From positions 53,860-117,859 of the forward strand of contig JANQPQ010000031.1 of assembly GCA_028285445.1 (NCBI GenBank): a DNA stretch of 64,000 nt, written 5' to 3'. A program made the position numbers and the translations under genes. Under the pieces are notes generated by a model, which was not told the origin of the DNA, did not search any database, and saw only the letters and a list, made by a program, of their open reading frames with translations. Below are positions 13,182 through 24,003 of the stretch, piece after piece. This DNA is from Cyclobacteriaceae bacterium (GTDB taxonomy: Bacteria > Bacteroidota > Bacteroidia > Cytophagales > Cyclobacteriaceae). The first letter of the stretch is position 1, and every line of letters starts with the position of its first letter.

Positions 13182-16100
13182 ATGAGAAACTTAGCATTTG
13201 CAATTACCTGCATCTTACTACTTTTAAATGCTTGTGGCCCAGATAACTCTACCCTAAGAATTAGCTACACCAGTTTCGAAGATGAAATTCCTGAAGCGGG
13301 AAATCTAATTTTTACTTTTAACAAAGAGGCGGTGCCTCGTAACATGGTAGACCGTTGGGATACTTTGGCTTACCTCGATTTCAACCCTCCGATAAGAGGC
13401 ACTTACAAATGGCGAGCGGCCAATGAGCTGATGTTCTCTCCAGTGGAGCCATTTGCGCCATCCACAGACTATGAAGTAAAACTTGGCAATCCCCTTGGCG
13501 ATCTTAACGGTGGCCAAGCTATTGATAAATCCCAGACTATAACTTTCCATACACCTTACCTGCAGTTGCAAACAGTTAGGGCCTACTGGAAGGCCGAATC
13601 AGACAACGCAGAGGCCATGGTGCATTATGACTTTGGCTTTAACTATGAAGTAAAACCATCCGATTTGGTCAATCTTGTATCACTACAAGTTGATGGCCAG
13701 GCGCACAACATAGAATTAGTAACCCAGGATGAATCCTCGTCAGTAACTGTTAGAGTACCCGGCATTAAAGCTGAGGACAGGGTTTTCTCTTCTGAAGTGA
13801 ATCTCAAAGAAGGACTTAAGCCTGCAAGAGGTAGAACAGGTATGGTAAAGGCTGTGGTGGAAAACCTCGACATTCAGTCGCCATACAGATTTTCTATCCT
13901 TGATATCCAAACCACCCACGACGGGTCTGAAGGTAAAGTTACAGTGTCAACGAGCCAGCAAGTGTCGAGGGATAATATCAAAAATTTCATCAGGCTCCAG
14001 CCTGCTGTTAATTACACCGTAGATATTACAGCCCAAAGCTTTACGCTATCTAGTGAAAACTTTGATGTAAATCAGAAATACGCACTCACTTTAAGGGAGA
14101 ACCTTGCTGGCGCATTAGGTGGCAGTCTCAAAACTGATTACAATCAAGACCTCAGCTTCGGCGAGCTTCGCCCCACGGTAAAATTCAACAACAGAAAAAG
14201 CATTTACCTGGCCGGCAAAGGCAATAAGAACTTAGAAGTAACTATCGTCAATGTAGACAAGGTAAAAGTGCGCATCACAAAAGTTTATGAGAATAATATC
14301 TTCAATTTCTTAGGCTCCAGCGATTACCGCTACGATTATGAAGCTGACGAGTATTTCTACGATTATGACTATTACCGGGCTAGCAACTTGGGTGATGTGG
14401 TCTGGGAACAAGAAATCGAAACCAGCCAATTGGGTCGATCTGGACCCAATAGAGTAATTAAGATGGATTTTGAAGATAAGATTCCCAATTATCGAGGGCT
14501 TTATATTCTGCAAGTGTCTTCAGATGAAGAGTACTATCTGCGGGCTAATAAGGTTGTAAACATTTCCGACATCGGATTGATTGCCAAAGCTGGTAAGAAA
14601 GGAGTTGCTGTTTTTGCCAATAGCCTCGAAACAGCTCAACCCATTAGTGGTGCGAGTGTTAATTTCATCGGAAATAATAACCAGTTGGTTTCTACCGTAC
14701 AAACTGATGCTGAAGGTTATGCCTACCTGGAAATGGAAGACCTGCTGGCTCCGGGATTTACCATTGGAATGATTACAGCCAACCTTGAGGAGGACTTTAA
14801 CTACTTGCCTTTCAATAATACTAGTGTGAACACCTCTCGGTTTGAAGTGGGCGGCAAGTACCAAAATAGCAGTGGCTATGAAGCCTTCCTCTATGCCGAA
14901 AGAGACATCTATCGGCCCGGGGAAAGCATTAACATCAGTGGCATCATTCGCGATTTTGATTGGCAAATGATGGGTGAAGTTCCGGTAAAGCTGAAAGTGA
15001 TTACCCCCAGTGGAAAAGAATACACCACCATTCGAAAAACCCTCAACGAATTCGGTTCATTTGAAGCTACCGTTGAAACTCCCAGCGCTGCTCTTACCGG
15101 CTCTTACAGCTTTCAGCTTTACACATCAAACGATGTGCTGCTAAGTTCAAAATCCATTCAAGTTGAAGAGTTTGTCCCCGACCGTATTAAGGTCGAAATT
15201 AAAGCTGACAAAGAAGAATTGAAGTCTGGTGAGACGCTTTGGCTAGACCTAAAAGCAACAAATTTCTTCGGTCCGCCTGCAGCCAATCGAAACTACGAAG
15301 TAGACTTCTCTTTGCAAAGACAAAGCTTTTACTCCCGTGAGCACAGCGATTACAATTTCGGTTTGCAAGGGTATTCAACGAGTTTCGATCGAGACCTGAG
15401 GTCAGGCAGCACCGATGCCACCGGATCTGCGCAGGAAGACTTTATTGTATCAGGCAGCTACCGGGACATGGGCCTACTGAGAGCCGACATCTTTGTAACG
15501 GTATTTGATGAAACCGGGCGGCCTGTAAGCAGAAGACAAACAGCCAGGGTCTATACCCAAGATGTTTTTTATGGCGTGCAACGTTCCGGCTACTACTTTA
15601 AAACCGGATCGCCGGTGAAAGTGCCCTTGGTAGCTTTGGATAAGGAATTTAAGGAATTGGAAGGTGTTTCGGCCCGCGTGCAGCTAATTAAGCATGAATA
15701 CAAAACGGTGCTTGCCAAGTCCGGCAGATACTTCCGCTACAACTCACAAAAGGTTGAGAGAGTTATTGAATCAAAAGAAGTATCCATCAGTGGAACTGCC
15801 AACAACTACACTTTCACCCCAGAACTCTCAGGGAGATATGAAGTGCGCGTTTCGAGACCAGGAGCAAGAACTTATGTAAGCCGCAGATTTTATGTTTACG
15901 GGTGGGGCCGAACCAGCTATTCTTCCTTTGAAGTAGATACCGAAGGTCAAATTGATATCGCCTTGGACAAAGAGAGATACGAAACCGGCGATATTGCTAA
16001 TGTAATTCTGAAAACACCCTTTGCAGGAAGAGTATTGGTGACCGTGGAAACTGATGAGGTCGTCGATCATTTCTATGTTGATACTGACAAACGGGCTGCA

Positions 16101-18575
16101 AGTTTTCAACTGGAGCTGGATGAAAGACATATACCCAACGTCTACATTTCTGCCACACTCTTCAAACCACATACCATATCAGAATTGCCACTGACGGTGG
16201 CCCACGGTGTTGCACCGGTAGTAGTGGATAATCCGGCTAACAATATGGCCATTGAGATTGAGGCCCCTGAGACTTCCCGATCTCATAAGAAGCAGACAAT
16301 CAAAGTGAAAGGCGCTCCTAACTCTGCAGTGACGTTGGCAGTTGTTGATGAAGGCATTTTACAGCTTACCGGCTACAGCACACCTAACCCGTATAACTTC
16401 TTCTATGGAAAAAGAGCATTGCAGGTAACATCCTATGATCTATACCCCTATTTATTCCCGGAAATTGCAACCAGCAGTACCGGAGGTGATGCCATGGCCA
16501 TGGAGAAAAGGGTGAACCCCTTGACAAATACCCGGATCAAACTAGTCTCTTACTGGTCTGGCGTTCTAACTACCGACGGGAGCGGAGAAGCCAGTTACGA
16601 AATTGATATCCCACAGTTCTCCGGAGACCTGCGAATAATGGCTGTTGGGTATAAGGATCAAACGTTCGGATCAGCCAGGACCAACATGAAAGTTGCTGAC
16701 CCCTTGGTGATCAGCACCGCGTTGCCCAGGTTCCTCAGTCCACGTGATGTGCTCAAGGTTCCGGTAGTCGTCAGCAATACTACTGAGAGCGCAGCAAGTT
16801 GCGACATTAAGATTAATGTTGAAGGCCCAATGACAGTTAATGGATCCTCTGAGCAAAAAGTTAGCATTGGTGCAAATAGTGAAGGAATTGCGACATTCGA
16901 TGTCTTGGTCAGCCCTGCCATCGGTCAAGGCAAGATCTCGGTTACTGTGGATGGCTTGGGCGAGGAGTTCCTGAATGAAACCGACATTACTGTTCGGCCG
17001 GCTGCTCCTTTGCAAAAAATCAATGGCTCGGGCATAGTGAAAAGTGGAGACGCAGAGGCTATCAATATGGATGTGGCTTCATTTATACCAGCCAGTGTAG
17101 ATAATCAATTAATTGTCAGTAAGTCTCCCCTGGTAGAGTTTACCGACGACCTTGAATACCTTATAAGATACCCCTACGGTTGTATTGAGCAAACAGTATC
17201 AAGTGCTTTCCCCCAGCTCTACTTCTCGGATATTGCCAATGATATCATTCGACCAGAAAACAGTGATGCAAACCCCGCTTACAACGTACGGGCCGCAATT
17301 AGTAAGTTGCAGCTTATGCAACTCTACAACGGCGGCATGGTATATTGGCCAAACGGGGGTTATGAAAGTTGGTGGGGAAGTGTTTATGCTGCCCACTTTC
17401 TACTCGAAGCTGAGAAAGCTGGCTTTGCAGTAGACAAAACAATGCTGAATAAGTTATTGAATTACCTGAAGGGAAGACTGAAGGAAAAGAAACTGATAAC
17501 CTATTTCTTCAATAGAAATCAGAACAAGCGCATTGTTCCGAAAGAAATTCCTTATTCACTGTTCGTTCTTTCTTTGGCTGGTAAGCCACAGAAGTCAACT
17601 ATGAATTATTACAAGTCGAACTTGCATGAGTTAAGTCTTGATGGAAAGTATCTGCTTGCCACTGCTTATTACTTGTCAGGTGATACCAAGCGCTATCAAG
17701 AGGTGTTACCCCCTGCATTTGAAGGTGAAGAATCGAATGCTGTTTTTGGCGGAAGTTTCTACTCACACCTTCGAGATGAAGCCCTGGCATTATACTGCCT
17801 ACTAGAAGTAGACCCCGACAACCAGCAGGTTGGAATTATGGCACGACATGTTTCTTCGGCTTTGAAAAACCGCAGATACCTCAATACCCAAGAGCGATCA
17901 TTCAGTTTCTTATCGCTGGGGAAAATAGCTCGCAAAGCTGCCGCCAGTGACATTCAGGCTACTATAAGCGTTAATGGTAGCAAAGTGGCTGACTTCGACA
18001 ATGAAACTATTACACTTAAAACTAATGACCTCAATGGCACGGCAGTTAATATTAATGCTTCTGGGTCTGGTCAACTTTACTATTTCTGGGACGCCGAAGG
18101 CATCAGTGCCGATGGCTCGTACAATGAAGAAGACAGCTACCTGCAGGTGCGGAAAACTTTTTATGATCGCTACGGTGGGTTAATAACAAACAACAGTTTT
18201 GAACAAAACGACTTGGTAGTTGTAAAACTCTCTGTGAGAGGGTTAACTGCTTCGCTTGTCGAGAATGTAGTGATCACGGATATGCTACCTGCTGGATTTG
18301 AAATTGAAAACCCAAGGGTTTCCGAAATACCGGGAATGAATTGGATTAAGGATAAGTCAAGTCCAACTCATTTGGATATTCGTGACGATAGGATAAACCT
18401 ATTTGTAGATGTTGGAGCCAGTCAACGCAGCTATTACTACGTGGTAAGAGCAGTATCTAAGGGTGATTTCCAAATGGGACCGGTGGGCGCCGATGCCATG
18501 TACAATGGAGAATATCATTCATACCATGGCGGCGGGGTAATAAAAGTGTTGGAAAAAGGGGGAGAAAGTAACTAA
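13182..18575 (+). CDS. Bacterial alpha-2-macroglobulin lipoprotein with thioester
   Basis: 1797 residues. N-terminal lipoprotein signal with lipobox LNAC (C18). A macroglobulin (MG) domain near residues 566-660 (YEAFLYAERDIYRPGE) and the A2M family domain near 1120-1200 (SYWSGVLTTDGSGEA...FSGDLRIMAVGY) precede the thioester domain with GC1334-I-E-Q1337, the intact C-x-E-Q motif. Such proteins trap attacking proteases at the cell envelope; in E. coli the homologue YfhM works with PBP1C. The pbpC gene is divergent just upstream, supporting that partnership. The length fits the family (about 1650-1900). Confidence 0.95.
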   Translation: MRNLAFAITCILLLLNACGPDNSTLRISYTSFEDEIPEAGNLIFTFNKEAVPRNMVDRWDTLAYLDFNPPIRGTYKWRAANELMFSPVEPFAPSTDYEVKLGNPLGDLNGGQAIDKSQTITFHTPYLQLQTVRAYWKAESDNAEAMVHYDFGFNYEVKPSDLVNLVSLQVDGQAHNIELVTQDESSSVTVRVPGIKAEDRVFSSEVNLKEGLKPARGRTGMVKAVVENLDIQSPYRFSILDIQTTHDGSEGKVTVSTSQQVSRDNIKNFIRLQPAVNYTVDITAQSFTLSSENFDVNQKYALTLRENLAGALGGSLKTDYNQDLSFGELRPTVKFNNRKSIYLAGKGNKNLEVTIVNVDKVKVRITKVYENNIFNFLGSSDYRYDYEADEYFYDYDYYRASNLGDVVWEQEIETSQLGRSGPNRVIKMDFEDKIPNYRGLYILQVSSDEEYYLRANKVVNISDIGLIAKAGKKGVAVFANSLETAQPISGASVNFIGNNNQLVSTVQTDAEGYAYLEMEDLLAPGFTIGMITANLEEDFNYLPFNNTSVNTSRFEVGGKYQNSSGYEAFLYAERDIYRPGESINISGIIRDFDWQMMGEVPVKLKVITPSGKEYTTIRKTLNEFGSFEATVETPSAALTGSYSFQLYTSNDVLLSSKSIQVEEFVPDRIKVEIKADKEELKSGETLWLDLKATNFFGPPAANRNYEVDFSLQRQSFYSREHSDYNFGLQGYSTSFDRDLRSGSTDATGSAQEDFIVSGSYRDMGLLRADIFVTVFDETGRPVSRRQTARVYTQDVFYGVQRSGYYFKTGSPVKVPLVALDKEFKELEGVSARVQLIKHEYKTVLAKSGRYFRYNSQKVERVIESKEVSISGTANNYTFTPELSGRYEVRVSRPGARTYVSRRFYVYGWGRTSYSSFEVDTEGQIDIALDKERYETGDIANVILKTPFAGRVLVTVETDEVVDHFYVDTDKRAASFQLELDERHIPNVYISATLFKPHTISELPLTVAHGVAPVVVDNPANNMAIEIEAPETSRSHKKQTIKVKGAPNSAVTLAVVDEGILQLTGYSTPNPYNFFYGKRALQVTSYDLYPYLFPEIATSSTGGDAMAMEKRVNPLTNTRIKLVSYWSGVLTTDGSGEASYEIDIPQFSGDLRIMAVGYKDQTFGSARTNMKVADPLVISTALPRFLSPRDVLKVPVVVSNTTESAASCDIKINVEGPMTVNGSSEQKVSIGANSEGIATFDVLVSPAIGQGKISVTVDGLGEEFLNETDITVRPAAPLQKINGSGIVKSGDAEAINMDVASFIPASVDNQLIVSKSPLVEFTDDLEYLIRYPYGCIEQTVSSAFPQLYFSDIANDIIRPENSDANPAYNVRAAISKLQLMQLYNGGMVYWPNGGYESWWGSVYAAHFLLEAEKAGFAVDKTMLNKLLNYLKGRLKEKKLITYFFNRNQNKRIVPKEIPYSLFVLSLAGKPQKSTMNYYKSNLHELSLDGKYLLATAYYLSGDTKRYQEVLPPAFEGEESNAVFGGSFYSHLRDEALALYCLLEVDPDNQQVGIMARHVSSALKNRRYLNTQERSFSFLSLGKIARKAAASDIQATISVNGSKVADFDNETITLKTNDLNGTAVNINASGSGQLYYFWDAEGISADGSYNEEDSYLQVRKTFYDRYGGLITNNSFEQNDLVVVKLSVRGLTASLVENVVITDMLPAGFEIENPRVSEIPGMNWIKDKSSPTHLDIRDDRINLFVDVGASQRSYYYVVRAVSKGDFQMGPVGADAMYNGEYHSYHGGGVIKVLEKGGESN

Positions 18576-18666: not shown

Positions 18667-19122
18667 GTGAAAAAGTTATCGACTTTAATCGTATTACTTG
18701 CTGTATCTCTCACTATGACTTCAAACTCGTCAATTGAGGATGGTTGGTTAACAAGCATTGATGAAGCGAAGGTTCTGGCTAAAGAAGAAGGAAAACCCAT
18801 ACTTATCAGTTTTGCAGGTTCAGACTGGTGTAAGCCCTGCATCAAGCTAACCAAGGAGGTCTTCGATACGCCACAATTTGAAAGCTATTCGCAAGATAAT
18901 CTGGTACTGCTTCTTGCAGACTTTCCGCGGCTTAAGAAAAACAAACTTCCTATCGATCAGACTCGGCATAACGAACGGCTTGCAGCCAAATACAACCGAC
19001 AGGGCATTTTCCCCTTGGTAGTCGTTATCAGTGAAAAAGGTGAATTGCTTGGCAAAATTGGATATGAAGCCGGAGGAGCCGAAGGCTACATTAAGCGAAT
19101 TCAATCTTTAATTGAGGGGTAG
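18667..19122 (+). CDS. Secreted thioredoxin-family protein
   Basis: 151 residues: an N-terminal signal sequence (to about residue 20) and a thioredoxin fold with the CxxC active site W-C55-K-P-C58. The context FAGSDWCKPCIKLTKEVF is typical of the thioredoxin_7/DUF255-like group of periplasmic thioredoxins. The start is GTG at 18667, giving a proper KK-hydrophobic signal. It is the first gene of a tight three-gene unit: apbE begins one nucleotide after its stop. The likely role is disulfide reduction or exchange on an envelope partner, plausibly the DUF4266 protein or electrons received from DsbD. Partner assignment is inference. Confidence 0.9.
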   Translation: MKKLSTLIVLLAVSLTMTSNSSIEDGWLTSIDEAKVLAKEEGKPILISFAGSDWCKPCIKLTKEVFDTPQFESYSQDNLVLLLADFPRLKKNKLPIDQTRHNERLAAKYNRQGIFPLVVVISEKGELLGKIGYEAGGAEGYIKRIQSLIEG

Positions 19123-19123
19123 T

Positions 19124-20170
19124 ATGAGGAGTTTCCTTGCCCTGGTAGTTGTTAGCACATCTTTCTTTGGTGCTGTAGGGCAATCAACGGAAAATTTAAG
19201 AGCTTACAAAAGGGTGCTCTCCTTGATGGGCTCTCGGTTTGAGATTAGCGCTGTAGCAAAATCTGAGCAGGAAGCTAATAGGGCCATTGATGCCGGAGTA
19301 GCTGAAATTACCAGAATCGAAAAGCTCATTTCATCATGGGACCCGAACTCACAAACCAGTAAGATTAACCGGTTTGCAGGTGTTGAGCCTGTAACGGTAT
19401 CTGAAGAACTCTACAACCTTATTTTTAGAAGCATAAAAGTATCGAAGCTAACAAATGGCGCTTTTGATATTTCCTATGCCGCCATCGACAAGATTTGGAA
19501 ATTCGACGGAACGATGACTAAACCTCCTTCCCAGGAACAAATTTCTGCTTCGGTTTCAAAAATTAATTTTGAGCATATCACTCTCAACCCATCCAGCCAA
19601 AGTGTTTTTCTTAAGGAAAAAGGCATGAAAATTGGCTTTGGTGCAATTGGCAAGGGATATGCAGCAAACAGAGCTAAAATGGTTATGATGAGCCTCGGAA
19701 TAGAAAGTGGGGTTGTGAATGCTTCCGGCGATCTTATAACCTGGGGAAAGCAGGAAACCGGGAGCGCTTGGAGGGTAGGAATTGCAAATCCGAAAAATAT
19801 TGAGAAGGTATTTTCCTGGTTGTCTGTGGAGAATATGTCAGTAGTGACATCTGGCAATTACGAAAAGTTCTTTATGCATGAGGGGAGACGATATTCACAT
19901 ATCATTAACCCGAAAACAGGATACCCCACCACTGGGATTAAAAGTGTTACCATCGTTTGCCCTGACGCTGAACTCGGTGATGCATTGGCCACTTCAGTTT
20001 TTGTGATGGGAAAACAGGGTGGATTACAATTAATAAATAATTTGAAGGGCATTGAATGTCTGATAATAACCGATGAAGACGAAATTGTGACATCGGAAAA
20101 CCTGGAGCTCAACTATTATGACGGTAGTGCTAATCAAAGTAAAGACTATAACTATAAAGTAGGTGGATGA
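19124..20170 (+). CDS. apbE: FAD:protein FMN transferase
   Basis: 348 residues starting at ATG 19124 (a TTG 12 nt earlier overlaps the thioredoxin stop and is unlikely). Signal peptide to about residue 19. ApbE hallmarks: MGSRFEI near the N-terminus, GFGAIGKGYAANRA and NASGDLITWG in the middle, HIINPKTGYPTTG near residue 258, and DALATSVFVMG near 287-297 (Mg and flavin site). ApbE moves FMN from FAD to Ser/Thr of a secreted target. No NqrC- or RnfG-like substrate is in the window, so the target is open. It overlaps the DUF4266 gene by 4 nt (ATGA), implying translational coupling. Confidence 0.93.
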   Translation: MRSFLALVVVSTSFFGAVGQSTENLRAYKRVLSLMGSRFEISAVAKSEQEANRAIDAGVAEITRIEKLISSWDPNSQTSKINRFAGVEPVTVSEELYNLIFRSIKVSKLTNGAFDISYAAIDKIWKFDGTMTKPPSQEQISASVSKINFEHITLNPSSQSVFLKEKGMKIGFGAIGKGYAANRAKMVMMSLGIESGVVNASGDLITWGKQETGSAWRVGIANPKNIEKVFSWLSVENMSVVTSGNYEKFFMHEGRRYSHIINPKTGYPTTGIKSVTIVCPDAELGDALATSVFVMGKQGGLQLINNLKGIECLIITDEDEIVTSENLELNYYDGSANQSKDYNYKVGG

Positions 20171-20397
20171 TTAAGAGACTTAAAAACCTGGTTATAATAT
20201 TCGCCATAAGCACCCTTGGTATGGGCCTGGAATCTTGCGTGACAGTGGAGGCCTATCAGAAAGTTTACCTTAATGATGAGGACATGAATCTAAGTGCGAA
20301 GAAGGTTGAAATCTTCGAAACCAATTTTCAATCTTATCGGGAAGGGGCTTCCGGTGCTAATGGAGGTAAGGCTGGCGGTGGCTGCGGATGCAACTAG
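20167..20397 (+). CDS. DUF4266 mini-lipoprotein
   Basis: 76 residues. N-terminal lipoprotein signal with lipobox-like LESC; a short middle part (YLNDEDMNLSAKKVEIFE); and a glycine-rich tail ending GGGCGCN with two cysteines. I recognise it as DUF4266, a family that from memory travels with thioredoxin and ApbE genes and often with a DUF3570 gene, which is absent here. The sequence EGASGAN resembles, but does not match, an ApbE flavinylation site (Ser-Gly-Ala followed by Thr/Ser). Its function is unknown; a metal- or cofactor-carrying envelope peptide is a reasonable guess. Confidence 0.85.
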   Translation: MIKRLKNLVIIFAISTLGMGLESCVTVEAYQKVYLNDEDMNLSAKKVEIFETNFQSYREGASGANGGKAGGGCGCN

Positions 20398-20753
20398 TCA
20401 CATCCGTGTATCTTCAACCTTACTGTGACGAGCCTGAGGTGCTTAACTTTTGCATCTCTGATTGCGACCCCTCTGGTCTAACAGCCAGTAATACTTGGTT
20501 GGTAATACAATTTAGCCTCGCATTATAGCATCGGAAGATTCAAACTTCCGTCTTAATAGGAAAAAAGATGAAGGCTGTGAAATTTCCAGGGCGCCCATTT
20601 GTGATAAGCTTACTGCACCCACTCTGCCGGCCTGACTACTTCAATCATTAGCAACGACCATTCTTTCCAATCAAACAAACAAAAAAGGCACTGTAGGGAA
20701 CCCTTTTTAATAAAATCGTATTAATAAGTAGTTTTGTACGGAATAGCGTAGAC
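20398..20753. other. 356-bp intergenic region with a small hairpin
   Basis: No convincing ORF. It holds a perfect 6-bp stem, CGGAAG/CTTCCG (20532-20537 and 20545-20550), with a 7-nt loop and no following T-run, and near its right end a TAGTTTTG promoter box. I do not recognise a known riboswitch or small RNA. Confidence 0.4.
20729..20736 (+). promoter_or_regulatory. Putative -7 box (TAGTTTTG) for dsbD
   Basis: TAnnTTTG match ending 17 nt before the dsbD ATG. No -33 TTG seen at the usual spacing. Confidence 0.45.
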
Positions 20754-23240
20754 ATGCAGCGACACTTATTTGCTATTTGCCTGGTTTTGGCTACTCTCGC
20801 CGGGTTTGGCCAGATTCTGGAACCAGCTAAATGGAAACATAGCACCTCAACCAACGAAGTTGAAGTGGGAGCGGAGATTGACTTGATCTTCACGGCTACC
20901 ATTGATGCGAACTGGTACCTCTACTCCTCTGACTTTGATCCCGACCTGGGACCCATGGTGACAGAGTTTAACTTTAATGAAGATGACTCCTATCAACTGG
21001 TTGGTGAAATCCGCCCGATAAACCCCAAAGAGAAATACGACAGCATTTTCGAAGGAAACTATACTTATTTCAAAGGAACTGGGGAATTCAGGCAGACTAT
21101 AAAGGTGCTTTCGGCAGATCTCAGAATCACCGGCAGTTACTCTTACCAGGTTTGCTCTGATATTGATGGCAAGTGCATTCCTTTCGAGGAAGATTTTGAA
21201 TTCACTGATTTTAGAGGAGGCAGCAGTAGTACCCTTGCTCAAGAAACTTCCTCACCATTGGCGTCGCCTTTTGCAAACACTGGAAGTCCTATTGGCGGTC
21301 AATTGCTGCATCCGGCTGAGTGGACTTGGGAAGCCAGCCAAACCAGCCTACAAACCGGAGACGAGGTGGAGCTTATATTCCTGGCAGACATCGATGATGA
21401 CTGGTACCTCTACTCCTCAGATTTCGATCCGGACCTTGGCCCTCAGGTAACTCGCATCAATTTTGTTCCTCACCCCTCTTATGAATTGGTGGGCGACCTG
21501 AAACCAATAAATCCCAAGGAAAAATACGATAGCATTTTCGAAGGAAACTACACCTACTTTAACAAGCGAGGTGAGTTTCGGCAAAAGATCAGGGTGCTAA
21601 GCGCCGACCTCACCATAACCGGCAACTATGAGTACCAGGTTTGTTCTGATATCGATGGCAAGTGCATTCCGTTTGATGAGGGCTTTGAATTTACCGGACT
21701 ACAAGTATCCGGCGAGCGAGTGAGCCCAACAGCGGCAGCTGTCTCCTTGACAGTCAGAGATAGCAATGACCCTTACTCCTTACTGGCATTTATGTTGTTC
21801 GCTTTTCTGGCAGGTTTAGCTGCTATTTTAACGCCGTGCGTTTTCCCCATGATCCCAGTTACTGTAACCTTTTTCACTAAAGGAGCCAACAGCAAAAGCG
21901 GAAAAGTAAAAGCACTCTTTTATGGAGTTGCCATCGTTCTTATCTACTCCTTAATTGGCGTGGGTGTATCGGTTGTATTCGGCGCCGAGGTAGCAAATGA
22001 TATCGCCACCAGCGCCACGGCCAACCTCATCTTCTTTGCTTTCTTCGTACTTTTTGGTCTGTCGTTCCTGGGCCTTTTTGATATTAACTTACCCAATTCA
22101 TGGGTTAACAAAGCTGATACCCAGGCTGATAAGGGTGGATACATTGGTGTAATATTCATGGCCCTTACTTTGGTGTTGGTTTCGTTTTCCTGCACCGGGC
22201 CAATCGTGGGCAGTATTCTTGTGGAGTCTGCAGGCGGGGCCTTCGTGAAACCTCTGCTGGGAATGTTTGCTTTCTCCATGGCATTCGCCATTCCCTTCAC
22301 ACTTTTTGCGTTTTTCCCGGGCTGGCTCAATTCTCTGCCAAAATCCGGGGGCTGGCTCAATTCTGTAAAAGTAGTTTTGGGTTTCGTTGAATTGGCCTTG
22401 TCGCTTAAGTTCTTAAGTATTGCTGATCAGGTTTATCACTGGAACCTGTTAGATAGAGAGGTCTTTCTTGCCATTTGGATAGTAATTCTGGTTATGCTCG
22501 GTTTTTACCTGCTTGGTAAAATCCGCATGCCACATGACGACGAGTTAAAAGTGGTTAGCGTGCCAAGAATGTTGCTGGCTATTGCAACTTTCTCATTTGT
22601 GGTCTACCTGGTGCCAGGCATGTTCGGAGCTCCACTAAAAGCCCTGGCCGGTTATCTTCCGCCAATTACCACTCACGATTTTGATGTACCGAGCCTTATA
22701 AGGCAAAACAGCGGTGGCGGCTCTTTGATGGCCAGTGAACAAGAGCTATGTGATGAACCTAAATATGCTGAGTTCTTGAAATTCCCGCATGGCATCCGTG
22801 GTTATTTTGACTACCAGCAGGCCATAGCTTGTGCACGCGAACAAAATAAGCCACTATTTATTGATTTCACTGGGCACGGTTGTGTTAACTGCCGTGAAAT
22901 GGAAGCCCGGGTGTGGTCTGACCCTGAAGTACTTCGCAGACTAAAGAATGATTTTGTGGTTGTTGCTCTTTACGTCGATGACCGCATGGAGCTACCTGAA
23001 CAGCAATGGTATACTTCTGATTATGATGGCAAGGTGAAGAAAACTATCGGCAAGCAGAATGCAGACTTCCAGATCAGCAAGTTCAATAACAATGCCCAGC
23101 CATTCTATGTTATTCTAAATCACCAGGAGCAACTGCTGATGGATCCTACTGCTTACAATTTGGACGTCGGTGATTTTGTGAAGTTTCTGGATGATGCCAA
23201 GGACAACTTCGAGAACAAGAACTCTGTCGCTACTAATTAG
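20754..23240 (+). CDS. dsbD: Thiol:disulfide interchange protein DsbD with duplicated N-terminal domain
   Basis: 828 residues. Signal peptide to about residue 19. Two copies of the periplasmic DsbD N-terminal domain follow (22-152 and 185-315), each with a C-x6-C pair (C134/C141; C297/C304). Then an eight-helix CcdA/DsbD membrane domain with C362 (TPCVFPM) and C480 (FSCTGP), and a C-terminal thioredoxin domain with C710-V-N-C713. It carries electrons from cytoplasmic thioredoxin to periplasmic proteins. The usual protein has one N-terminal domain; the duplication is unusual. It follows the thioredoxin-ApbE-DUF4266 operon but has its own promoter-like box. Confidence 0.93.
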   Translation: MQRHLFAICLVLATLAGFGQILEPAKWKHSTSTNEVEVGAEIDLIFTATIDANWYLYSSDFDPDLGPMVTEFNFNEDDSYQLVGEIRPINPKEKYDSIFEGNYTYFKGTGEFRQTIKVLSADLRITGSYSYQVCSDIDGKCIPFEEDFEFTDFRGGSSSTLAQETSSPLASPFANTGSPIGGQLLHPAEWTWEASQTSLQTGDEVELIFLADIDDDWYLYSSDFDPDLGPQVTRINFVPHPSYELVGDLKPINPKEKYDSIFEGNYTYFNKRGEFRQKIRVLSADLTITGNYEYQVCSDIDGKCIPFDEGFEFTGLQVSGERVSPTAAAVSLTVRDSNDPYSLLAFMLFAFLAGLAAILTPCVFPMIPVTVTFFTKGANSKSGKVKALFYGVAIVLIYSLIGVGVSVVFGAEVANDIATSATANLIFFAFFVLFGLSFLGLFDINLPNSWVNKADTQADKGGYIGVIFMALTLVLVSFSCTGPIVGSILVESAGGAFVKPLLGMFAFSMAFAIPFTLFAFFPGWLNSLPKSGGWLNSVKVVLGFVELALSLKFLSIADQVYHWNLLDREVFLAIWIVILVMLGFYLLGKIRMPHDDELKVVSVPRMLLAIATFSFVVYLVPGMFGAPLKALAGYLPPITTHDFDVPSLIRQNSGGGSLMASEQELCDEPKYAEFLKFPHGIRGYFDYQQAIACAREQNKPLFIDFTGHGCVNCREMEARVWSDPEVLRRLKNDFVVVALYVDDRMELPEQQWYTSDYDGKVKKTIGKQNADFQISKFNNNAQPFYVILNHQEQLLMDPTAYNLDVGDFVKFLDDAKDNFENKNSVATN

Positions 23241-24003
23241 TGCTTACCGTAACATCTTCGTGGATAATTTTTGAAAGCTCCCGCAACTTTCCTTCCTGGA
23301 ATAGTTGATCATAATTAGCCAGGTCTGGTTCATTCTGCTCATCACTCTTGTAGTTAATGTAGTCATTAAAGATAATCCCACCCACTTGTCTCTGGTTGAT
23401 AGCTTCACGAAAGCGGTTGCCGTATTTGCTGTATCCCATGTAGTCCAGGGTTCCATTTTCCTTGTGAAACCAGTAGTAGAAAACATTGTCAGGGTCTTTT
23501 CCTCCTCCTTCACCCTGGAAGGTGATTTTCACCTTATTGTAGAGTTGATCTCTAATGGCTACCTCTCCCACATACTCCTTCACAACCGCCGGGTCGTTGA
23601 GCTTGAATGGCAGTAGGGCAAAGTAAGGAACTGAATTCACCTGACTTATTGCCTCTGATCTTCCCTGTACTTCAGAAACCTCATTGCCATCTATTAGCCG
23701 TGTAAACTCACCGCGGTTGTTATAGCTATCTACGAAAGTCTTATCTCCAACCTCATATTTGCAGGTATACCGGAATGAGTTCTCCCCCATTTGCACCGTG
23801 AAATTCTTACCCCTAAAAGAGAAGGCAATCTCTGATCTCATGTATAAATCACCGCCATGAACCGCGATGGCACTATCCACAACTTCTTGCGCCAGATCAG
23901 GGTTTTGAGCAATCCCTTGATCGCTATCCTCCGATCTAACCGAACACGCGGCAAGGGAAATGATAACGAATAGAACAAATAGTGGGATGGTATGAAGTTT
24001 CAT
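23233..24003 (-). CDS. DUF6503 family lipoprotein
   Basis: 256 residues with a lipoprotein signal (lipobox SLAAC, then SVRSED). The conserved AIAVHGG element near residue 48 and the pattern of short beta-strands match DUF6503, a LolA/outer-membrane-lipoprotein-sorting-like group common in Cytophagales and Flavobacteria. No function has been assigned that I know. Its 3' end overlaps the convergent dsbD gene by 8 bp. Confidence 0.8.
   Translation of the reverse strand: MKLHTIPLFVLFVIISLAACSVRSEDSDQGIAQNPDLAQEVVDSAIAVHGGDLYMRSEIAFSFRGKNFTVQMGENSFRYTCKYEVGDKTFVDSYNNRGEFTRLIDGNEVSEVQGRSEAISQVNSVPYFALLPFKLNDPAVVKEYVGEVAIRDQLYNKVKITFQGEGGGKDPDNVFYYWFHKENGTLDYMGYSKYGNRFREAINQRQVGGIIFNDYINYKSDEQNEPDLANYDQLFQEGKLRELSKIIHEDVTVSTN

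Follow-up and report, generated by a model that had tools for sequence, protein, structure and literature searches.

Gene clusters that combine ApbE, DUF3570, a thioredoxin and DUF4266, often with DsbD, have been described as a distinct type by Meheust et al. in 2021 (PMC8238504). The parts of that paper drawn on here count 285 flavinylation clusters with DsbD, typically holding ApbE, DUF3570, a PF13899 thioredoxin and DUF4266, and 316 such clusters without DsbD. The same parts report that DUF3570 of Chlorobium luteolum is flavinylated by ApbE at two [S/T]GA[S/T] sites, propose a thioredoxin/flavin hybrid electron path, note the conserved CXC end of DUF4266, and record the co-occurrence of some clusters with the VIT1 iron transporter. 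Iron has been suggested in print, in the text available, as the final electron acceptor. A cluster of this type is found in the window, meaning here the whole stretch of 64,000 nucleotides analysed from a Cyclobacteriaceae genome (GenBank assembly GCA_028285445.1, contig JANQPQ010000031.1, positions 53,860 to 117,859). It consists of a thioredoxin gene (trx), apbE, a gene for a small predicted DUF4266 lipoprotein and, downstream, DsbD, and its DUF3570 gene appears to survive only as a relic.

A literature search, with subscription journals and preprints outside its range, found DUF4266 or DUF3570 named nowhere else than in the 2021 paper, and the available portions of a 2024 follow-up and a 2025 ApbE review add nothing on DUF3570-DUF4266 clusters. 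A more distant parallel in mechanism is offered by the sulfhydryl oxidases Erv1 and Erv2, which use a shuttle disulfide; Erv2 carries a C-terminal CXC (PMC4019985, the portion used here). A literature search for Erv2 together with Cys-Gly-Cys and flavin found no paper.

It is rather probable that trx, apbE and DUF4266, with DsbD, are the remainder of an ApbE-DUF3570 operon, and that they serve a DUF3570 protein encoded on another contig (C45) in trans, by flavinylating it and by passing electrons to it through the Cys-Gly-Cys (CGC) tail of DUF4266. The cluster has the gene content and order of such operons, with a DUF3570 relic in its gap. The genome keeps an intact paralogue, which carries both acceptor motifs and has its own position in the DUF3570 tree, and the CGC tail is invariant.

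The decayed operon gene and the predicted barrel on contig C45

The earlier note on this DNA had described three genes packed with a 1-nucleotide gap and a 4-nucleotide overlap, the last encoding a 76-residue product with EGASGAN and the ending GGGCGCN; all of this is present in the sequence, and Pfam agrees. The apbE ATG at 19124 lies one base past the trx stop, and the apbE stop shares four nucleotides (ATGA) with the DUF4266 start at 20167. The trx product shows a weak relationship to DsbH, scoring 98 bits where the cut-off is 190, and ApbE has what reads as a signal-like N-terminus. The note made no mention of DsbD at 20754-23240, the fourth member of the cluster, which is the sole DsbD_TM match in a whole-genome search and is 57% identical to the DsbD downstream of DUF3570 in two related loci, L078 and L080 (genomes, contigs and loci are given by our G, C and L numbers). 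Because the order trx-apbE-DUF4266 recurs in relatives, the cassette is not a chance arrangement.

DUF4266 and DsbD are separated by a gap of 356 nucleotides. The loci L078 (genome G035) and L080 (G106) read trx-apbE-DUF4266-DUF3570-DsbD, and their DUF3570 stands at the place that the relic occupies here. When 160 DUF3570 proteins were compared with the gap by tblastn, their C-termini matched, with a best E of 5e-5. A profile of 160 DUF3570s matched in frame +2 (profile positions 311-358 at 20403-20546) and in frame +0 (positions 342-395 of 397 at 20497-20670); the two matches, scoring 8.0 and 5.0 bits, are colinear on the + strand and overlap by 50 nucleotides. The best score exceeds the maximum of 6.5 among 2986 scored dinucleotide shuffles (3000 were made), and the relic tiles rank first and second among 358 tiles of the window. 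An ATG that overlaps the DUF4266 stop and reads M-Q-L, as 8 of 11 compared relatives also have, is retained in the window. The simplest reading of these sequences is that a DUF3570 gene once stood in the gap and has since lost about 300 first codons.

One might instead suppose that the gap is unrelated DNA with a chance likeness to DUF3570, and that this lineage never had an operon DUF3570. Such an account fits the low single-frame scores and the result of blastn of the gap against the DNA of L078, L080, L082 and L006, which gave nothing better than E 0.2. It is nevertheless very improbable, given two colinear matches with the expected strand, order and position, the failure of all 2986 shuffles to reach either the best single or the chained score, the tile ranks and the retained start.

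The earlier note had also taken DUF3570 to be absent. This holds for an intact gene (PF12094) in the cluster, since the window has only the relic; it does not hold for the genome, which spans 5.48 Mb in 57 contigs and is 97.8% complete. The genome-wide search that the note had named as a check gave one DUF3570 match, an intact gene at C45:131193-131912, well inside a contig of 174,893 bases. Loss of DUF3570 from the genome is ruled out by this copy, and the absence reads as a local one, with a relic in place and a paralogue elsewhere.

The C45 protein has two acceptor-like motifs, TSAS (residues 92-95) and SSAS (104-107), in a relaxed form of [S/T]GA[S/T]; they align with the VTGAS and SGAS of the DUF3570s at L199 and L200. 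These two loci, from the same phylum, have the order DUF4266-DUF3570-apbE-DsbD-thioredoxin (the last match being weak) and carry both VTGAS and SGAS. The N-terminal part has at least two acceptor-like motifs in 36 of the 39 family DUF3570s and in 117 of the 120 best among at least 4865 relatives. The C45 protein was modelled with a mean predicted local distance difference test score (pLDDT) of 90 and a predicted template modelling score (pTM) of 0.85. DSSP finds 19 strand pieces in this model, merged by count into 16 strands, and the protein is predicted to be a 16-strand outer-membrane barrel. A fold search against the PDB returned FadL, OmpG and Occ porins with template modelling (TM) scores of about 0.4, a broad placement only. 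The motifs (residues 92-107) lie in the loop that joins strand 3 to strand 4 of the model.

Table 1. Features of the cluster, its gap and the C45 locus (positions in the window unless a locus is named)
Feature	Position	Strand	Basis
trx, thioredoxin-like, 151 residues, signal-like N-terminus, CKPC active site	18667..19122	+	open reading frame, GTG start; Pfam Thioredoxin_7 (PF13899) 1.3e-11
apbE, FAD (flavin adenine dinucleotide):protein FMN (flavin mononucleotide) transferase, 348 residues	19124..20170	+	Pfam ApbE (PF02424) 1.1e-84
DUF4266 gene, 76 residues, predicted lipoprotein, Gly-rich tail ending CGCN	20167..20397	+	Pfam DUF4266 (PF14086) 3e-19
Tail codons Cys73-Gly74-Cys75-Asn76	20383..20394	+	CGCN end in family and database relatives
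ATGCAACTAG, overlapping ATG reading M-Q-L	20388..20397	+	DUF3570 start place in relatives
Putative DUF3570 relic, about 85 C-terminal codons, two frames, several stops	20403..20670	+	profile search, tblastn
DsbD, transmembrane thiol electron carrier, C-terminal thioredoxin domain fused	20754..23240	+	DsbD_TM (PF02683) 3.3e-25, DsbD_N, Thioredoxin_7
Partner protein, 218 residues, no Pfam match	L006:10221-10877 (contig C45)		adjoins DUF3570

The DUF4266 protein and its CGC tail

A single DUF4266 was found in the genome. Its protein has a lipobox-like Cys24, and Pfam finds DUF4266 only and no Erv domain. When 38 family proteins from 39 places were aligned (that of G008 was not fetched), Cys24, Tyr30, Asp37, Met40, Arg58, Glu59 and GCGCN proved invariant. 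This alignment, another check named in the earlier note, has CGCN as the C-terminal end in all 38 proteins, as have 120/120 of the best among 4243 database relatives. The same end is found in 79/79 DUF4266 proteins from named loci, a set whose search patterns partly contain CGC and in which L112 yielded no frame. A further ten loci, more distant within the phylum and chosen partly for a different-looking match at the DUF4266 end, gave six endings in CGCN, three in CGCG and one in CGCAK; therefore it is CGC that is constant, and not the Asn. The structural model of DUF4266 has no fold past the signal helix, at low confidence (mean pLDDT 61), so that the CGC tail, when set beside the shuttle arm of Erv, is present and modelled as unstructured, again at low confidence.

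The earlier note had proposed that ApbE modifies this peptide or a third protein, and had likened SGAN to an acceptor site. The main idea of the proposal makes DUF4266 itself the ApbE substrate, with covalent FMN on its tail and the thioredoxin keeping its cysteines reduced, and it draws on the tight packing of apbE with DUF4266 and on SGAN being one residue off the acceptor motif. The alignment rules out DUF4266 as a degenerate acceptor: the motif [ST][GS]A[ST] is absent from the window's protein and present in 1/38 of the family and in 0/120 of the best among the 4243 relatives, and therefore the idea fails. The SGAN column holds Asn in 27/38 proteins and Thr in 2, with Ser/Thr not fixed, and would not be a decayed Ser/Thr position; judged from the aligned sequences, the likeness carries no meaning. 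Several loci, moreover, pair DUF4266 with DUF3570 without an apbE in the fetched stretch, and the substrate that ApbE has been proven to modify in such clusters is DUF3570 (PMC8238504, in the part available). A DUF4266 substrate is thus extremely improbable, and what stands of the proposal is the third protein, which in view of the published case is likely to be DUF3570.

A different role for the tail would be to bind Cu(I), Zn or Fe and to deliver the metal to or through the DUF3570 barrel, with flavin and thioredoxin setting the redox state of the metal. A Gly-rich tail with an invariant CXC and no structure in the model would suit this, as would the co-occurrence of some published clusters with VIT1 (PMC8238504, in the part available). 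DUF4266, however, has no invariant His or Cys besides CGC and Cys24 (Met40 is invariant), and the usual neighbours found are thiol and flavin redox proteins, in surveys that did not search for metal transporters. A metal carrier is therefore considered unlikely.

The preferred reading, service to the C45 barrel in trans, can be given a mechanism. ApbE would attach FMN to the C45 barrel before its insertion; Ser95 and Ser107 are the putative sites, because of the analogy to the Chlorobium luteolum protein. For the electrons we infer a path from the cytosol to DsbD, from DsbD to the CKPC of the thioredoxin, from there to the CGC of DUF4266, and finally to covalent FMN on DUF3570. DUF4266 would act as a flexible arm, anchored by its lipid and able to reach the barrel, in the manner of the C-terminal CXC shuttle of Erv2; in this genome the chain would span two loci. 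A tentative generalization, which may well be wrong, is that DUF4266 proteins are tethered thiol-to-flavin shuttles whose disordered arm feeds the FMN of DUF3570 in a thiol-driven, cytochrome-free conduit across the outer membrane, and that the barrel may be encoded apart. That shuttle and barrel can do without being co-encoded is suggested by the genomes with a second barrel, where the operon barrel has been lost repeatedly.

Relatives and trees

Across the genomes searched, DUF4266 depends on DUF3570. Among 148 family genomes, DUF4266 is found in 33 and DUF3570 in 33/33 of those; among 395 genomes of the phylum, the counts are 113 and 113/113, with DUF3570 alone in five (the present genome and some family genomes are counted in both samples). 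All 34 family genomes that match DUF3570 also match ApbE, in G118 through a fragment only, and G013, also of the family, has only a fragment of DUF3570. DUF4266 lies within 2.5 kb of DUF3570 at 37/39 family places, the exceptions being the present genome and contig C637 of G086. DUF3570 places without DUF4266 within that distance are those of the present genome, G035, G141, G086 (contig C726) and G013. The best 80 of 545 confirmed named DUF4266 loci all have DUF3570 in the fetched stretch. The loci with DUF4266-DUF3570 and no apbE in the fetched stretch are L072, L088, L093, L096, L097, L098, L037 and L039, some of which are on short contigs.

Broken operons occur in other relatives. In G089, trx-apbE is followed by a C-terminal remnant of DUF3570 (independent E-value 2e-8); DUF4266 is gone from this place, and an intact partner-DUF4266-DUF3570 locus lies elsewhere (the partner gene is described below). 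On contig C637 of G086, the DUF3570 that comes after apbE-DUF4266 breaks off at about 60 profile positions, possibly at a misjoin since the assembly is fragmented (about 740 contigs); G086 also has a separate trx-DUF4266-DUF3570 locus. G018 and G015 retain, apart from their second locus, only trx-apbE and only apbE, respectively, and no DUF3570 remnant was found beside these genes. In G445, trx-apbE-DUF4266 lies about 41 kb from its DUF3570, and the cassette has no DUF3570 remnant at E 0.001. G324 was not counted as a further split case because its DUF4266 is near a contig end.

The history of the C45 gene was approached with a tree of 39 family DUF3570s from 42 places; those of G008, G013 and one place in G086 were unfetched, and the broken G086 copy was too short. 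The C45 protein falls in an 11-row clade (support 100/99) made up mostly of second-locus DUF3570s, apart from the DUF3570s of the operons with the nearest ApbE and DsbD. The clade includes the orphan DUF3570s of G035 and G141, pairs without a neighbouring apbE (G015, G018, G089, G057 and G118) and three whole operons (G045, G109 and G071). The gene beside the C45 DUF3570, here called the partner, has a related distribution: in fetched stretches of 3 to 14 kb, its relatives are near 9/11 members of this clade and 0/28 other DUF3570s, a pattern that requires two changes on the tree. The partner directly adjoins DUF3570 in the present genome, G035 and G141, is separated from it by DUF4266 in G015, G018 and G089, and lies further away in G045, G109 and G071. 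Whole-genome searches of ten relatives found it in nine, G057 being the exception; the G086 copy is on a separate contig, at its end. For the relative in L067, barrel families matched weakly, at borderline or below-threshold scores. The partner is apparently a companion, undescribed so far, of one DUF3570 subtype. Because of this conserved partner and the separate clade, the C45 gene is, on sequence grounds, most likely an old paralogue, and relocation of the operon gene to C45 is disfavoured for the same two reasons. A permease gene of the ArsP_1 type was observed near orphan DUF3570s at L067:4691-5929 (scanned) and L068:8953-10188 (similar by eye); none was seen among the listed neighbours on C45, which were only partly scanned.

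The ApbE of the window belongs to a 32-row clade (100/100) of ApbEs from DUF3570 systems, apart from the ApbE on contig C4, which groups with the second ApbEs of G071 and G057. Within it, the window ApbE pairs with G130b (97/91) and falls in a 15-row clade (95/86, partly unresolved) with G106, G035, G141, G045, G109 and G071. The C4 ApbE was considered as an equal candidate for flavinylating the barrel and is disfavoured by its membership in the other clade. A single FMN_bind protein turned up in the genome; it was identified by scanning, lies within L065:4798-9590 in an operon read as nqr-like from unscanned neighbours, and is presumably the target of the C4 ApbE. The genome's second ApbE, that on C4 (L066:5787-6836), is without such neighbours.

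Several points weigh against the proposal that the cluster serves the C45 barrel. The relic is faint, with neither frame strong alone, and the chained score of 12.6 (shuffle maximum 6.1 under the same rule) counts the 50-nucleotide overlap twice and follows a rule set after the matches were seen. The groups in the tree tests were likewise named only after the tree had been seen: forcing the present DUF3570 together with G086a, G130b, G106, G035 and G141 is 21.9 log units worse (approximately unbiased test, p-AU 0.0015), and forcing it with G106, G035 and G141 alone gives p-AU 0.0003. The ApbE does not by itself reveal which DUF3570 type it once served, to judge from its tree, because the 15-row clade mixes operons of both types. 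In alignment, the distant DUF3570s L189 to L192 are without one or both acceptor motifs. In the C45 model, the long-loop side carries the acceptor loop (residues 93-108, pLDDT about 67). In ordinary porins this side faces outside, and loop lengths suggest that the acceptor loop is outward-facing; the periplasmic DUF4266 tail might therefore miss it unless the loop folds inward. Both the flavin on the C45 barrel and the electron flow through the CGC tail are proposals by analogy.

The cassette could also be a dying remnant, its trx, apbE and DUF4266 functionless and drifting. The operon DUF3570 is decayed here and broken in G089 and G086, the G089 place is without DUF4266, and G018 and G015 are reduced as described above, all of which a dying remnant would lead one to expect. 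Set against this, the three frames are open and the DUF4266 retains all the family-invariant residues; a DUF3570 carrying the two acceptor motifs persists in the genome, in which the searches turned up no second DUF4266 and no second ApbE from the DUF3570-system clade. A dying remnant is for these reasons judged improbable, and service to the C45 barrel in trans remains the favoured explanation.

Some features of the surroundings may be recorded. The N-terminal domain of the DsbD is present as a tandem duplicate (residues about 19-154 and about 182-333), and both copies match the single N-terminal domain of the L078 and L080 DsbDs. A DUF6503 gene (23233-24003, minus strand) is convergent with DsbD. 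On the upstream side, the cassette is adjoined by a large bacterial alpha-2-macroglobulin gene (13182-18575), for which the relatives' fetched neighbourhoods contain no match. Rfam gave zero matches at gathering scores in the window.

Comparison with described systems

If the system is split as proposed, it would be a natural complementation test, since the genome has a single copy each of DUF4266, of DsbD, of an intact barrel gene and of an ApbE from the DUF3570-system clade, divided between two places. Such a genome suggests which of the parts are interchangeable, with DUF4266 going with DUF3570 wherever the latter is encoded. If the shuttle reading is true, electrons would cross the outer membrane through a conduit that has no cytochromes.

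The likeness of DUF4266 to Erv2 and Erv1 (PMC4019985, the portion used here) would lie in a terminal arm with a cysteine pair that connects a thiol partner with a flavin active site. Unlike those enzymes, no Erv domain is present, and the arm and the flavin are on separate proteins; the FMN would be covalent, by prediction, and the flow of electrons is assumed to be outward. The likeness is one of working and not of family membership.

The closer comparison is with the flavinylation clusters themselves. Like the Chlorobium luteolum DUF3570 (PMC8238504, in the part available), the C45 protein has two acceptor-like motifs close together; unlike it, these are TSAS and SSAS and not SGAS-like, and the likeness was drawn through L199 and L200 rather than from the C. 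luteolum sequence. As in the DsbD-type clusters of the same report, ApbE, a DUF4266 with a CXC end, a Thioredoxin_7 protein and DsbD occur together. In contrast to those clusters, so far as the report was available, the DUF3570 of the cluster has here decayed to a relic; the sole intact DUF3570 found lies on a different contig, belongs to another subclade and has a small neighbour gene of its own. The cluster type is thus already in print, and what is unusual is its state in this genome, with a fossil of the operon barrel gene in place and the barrel of a second locus remaining.

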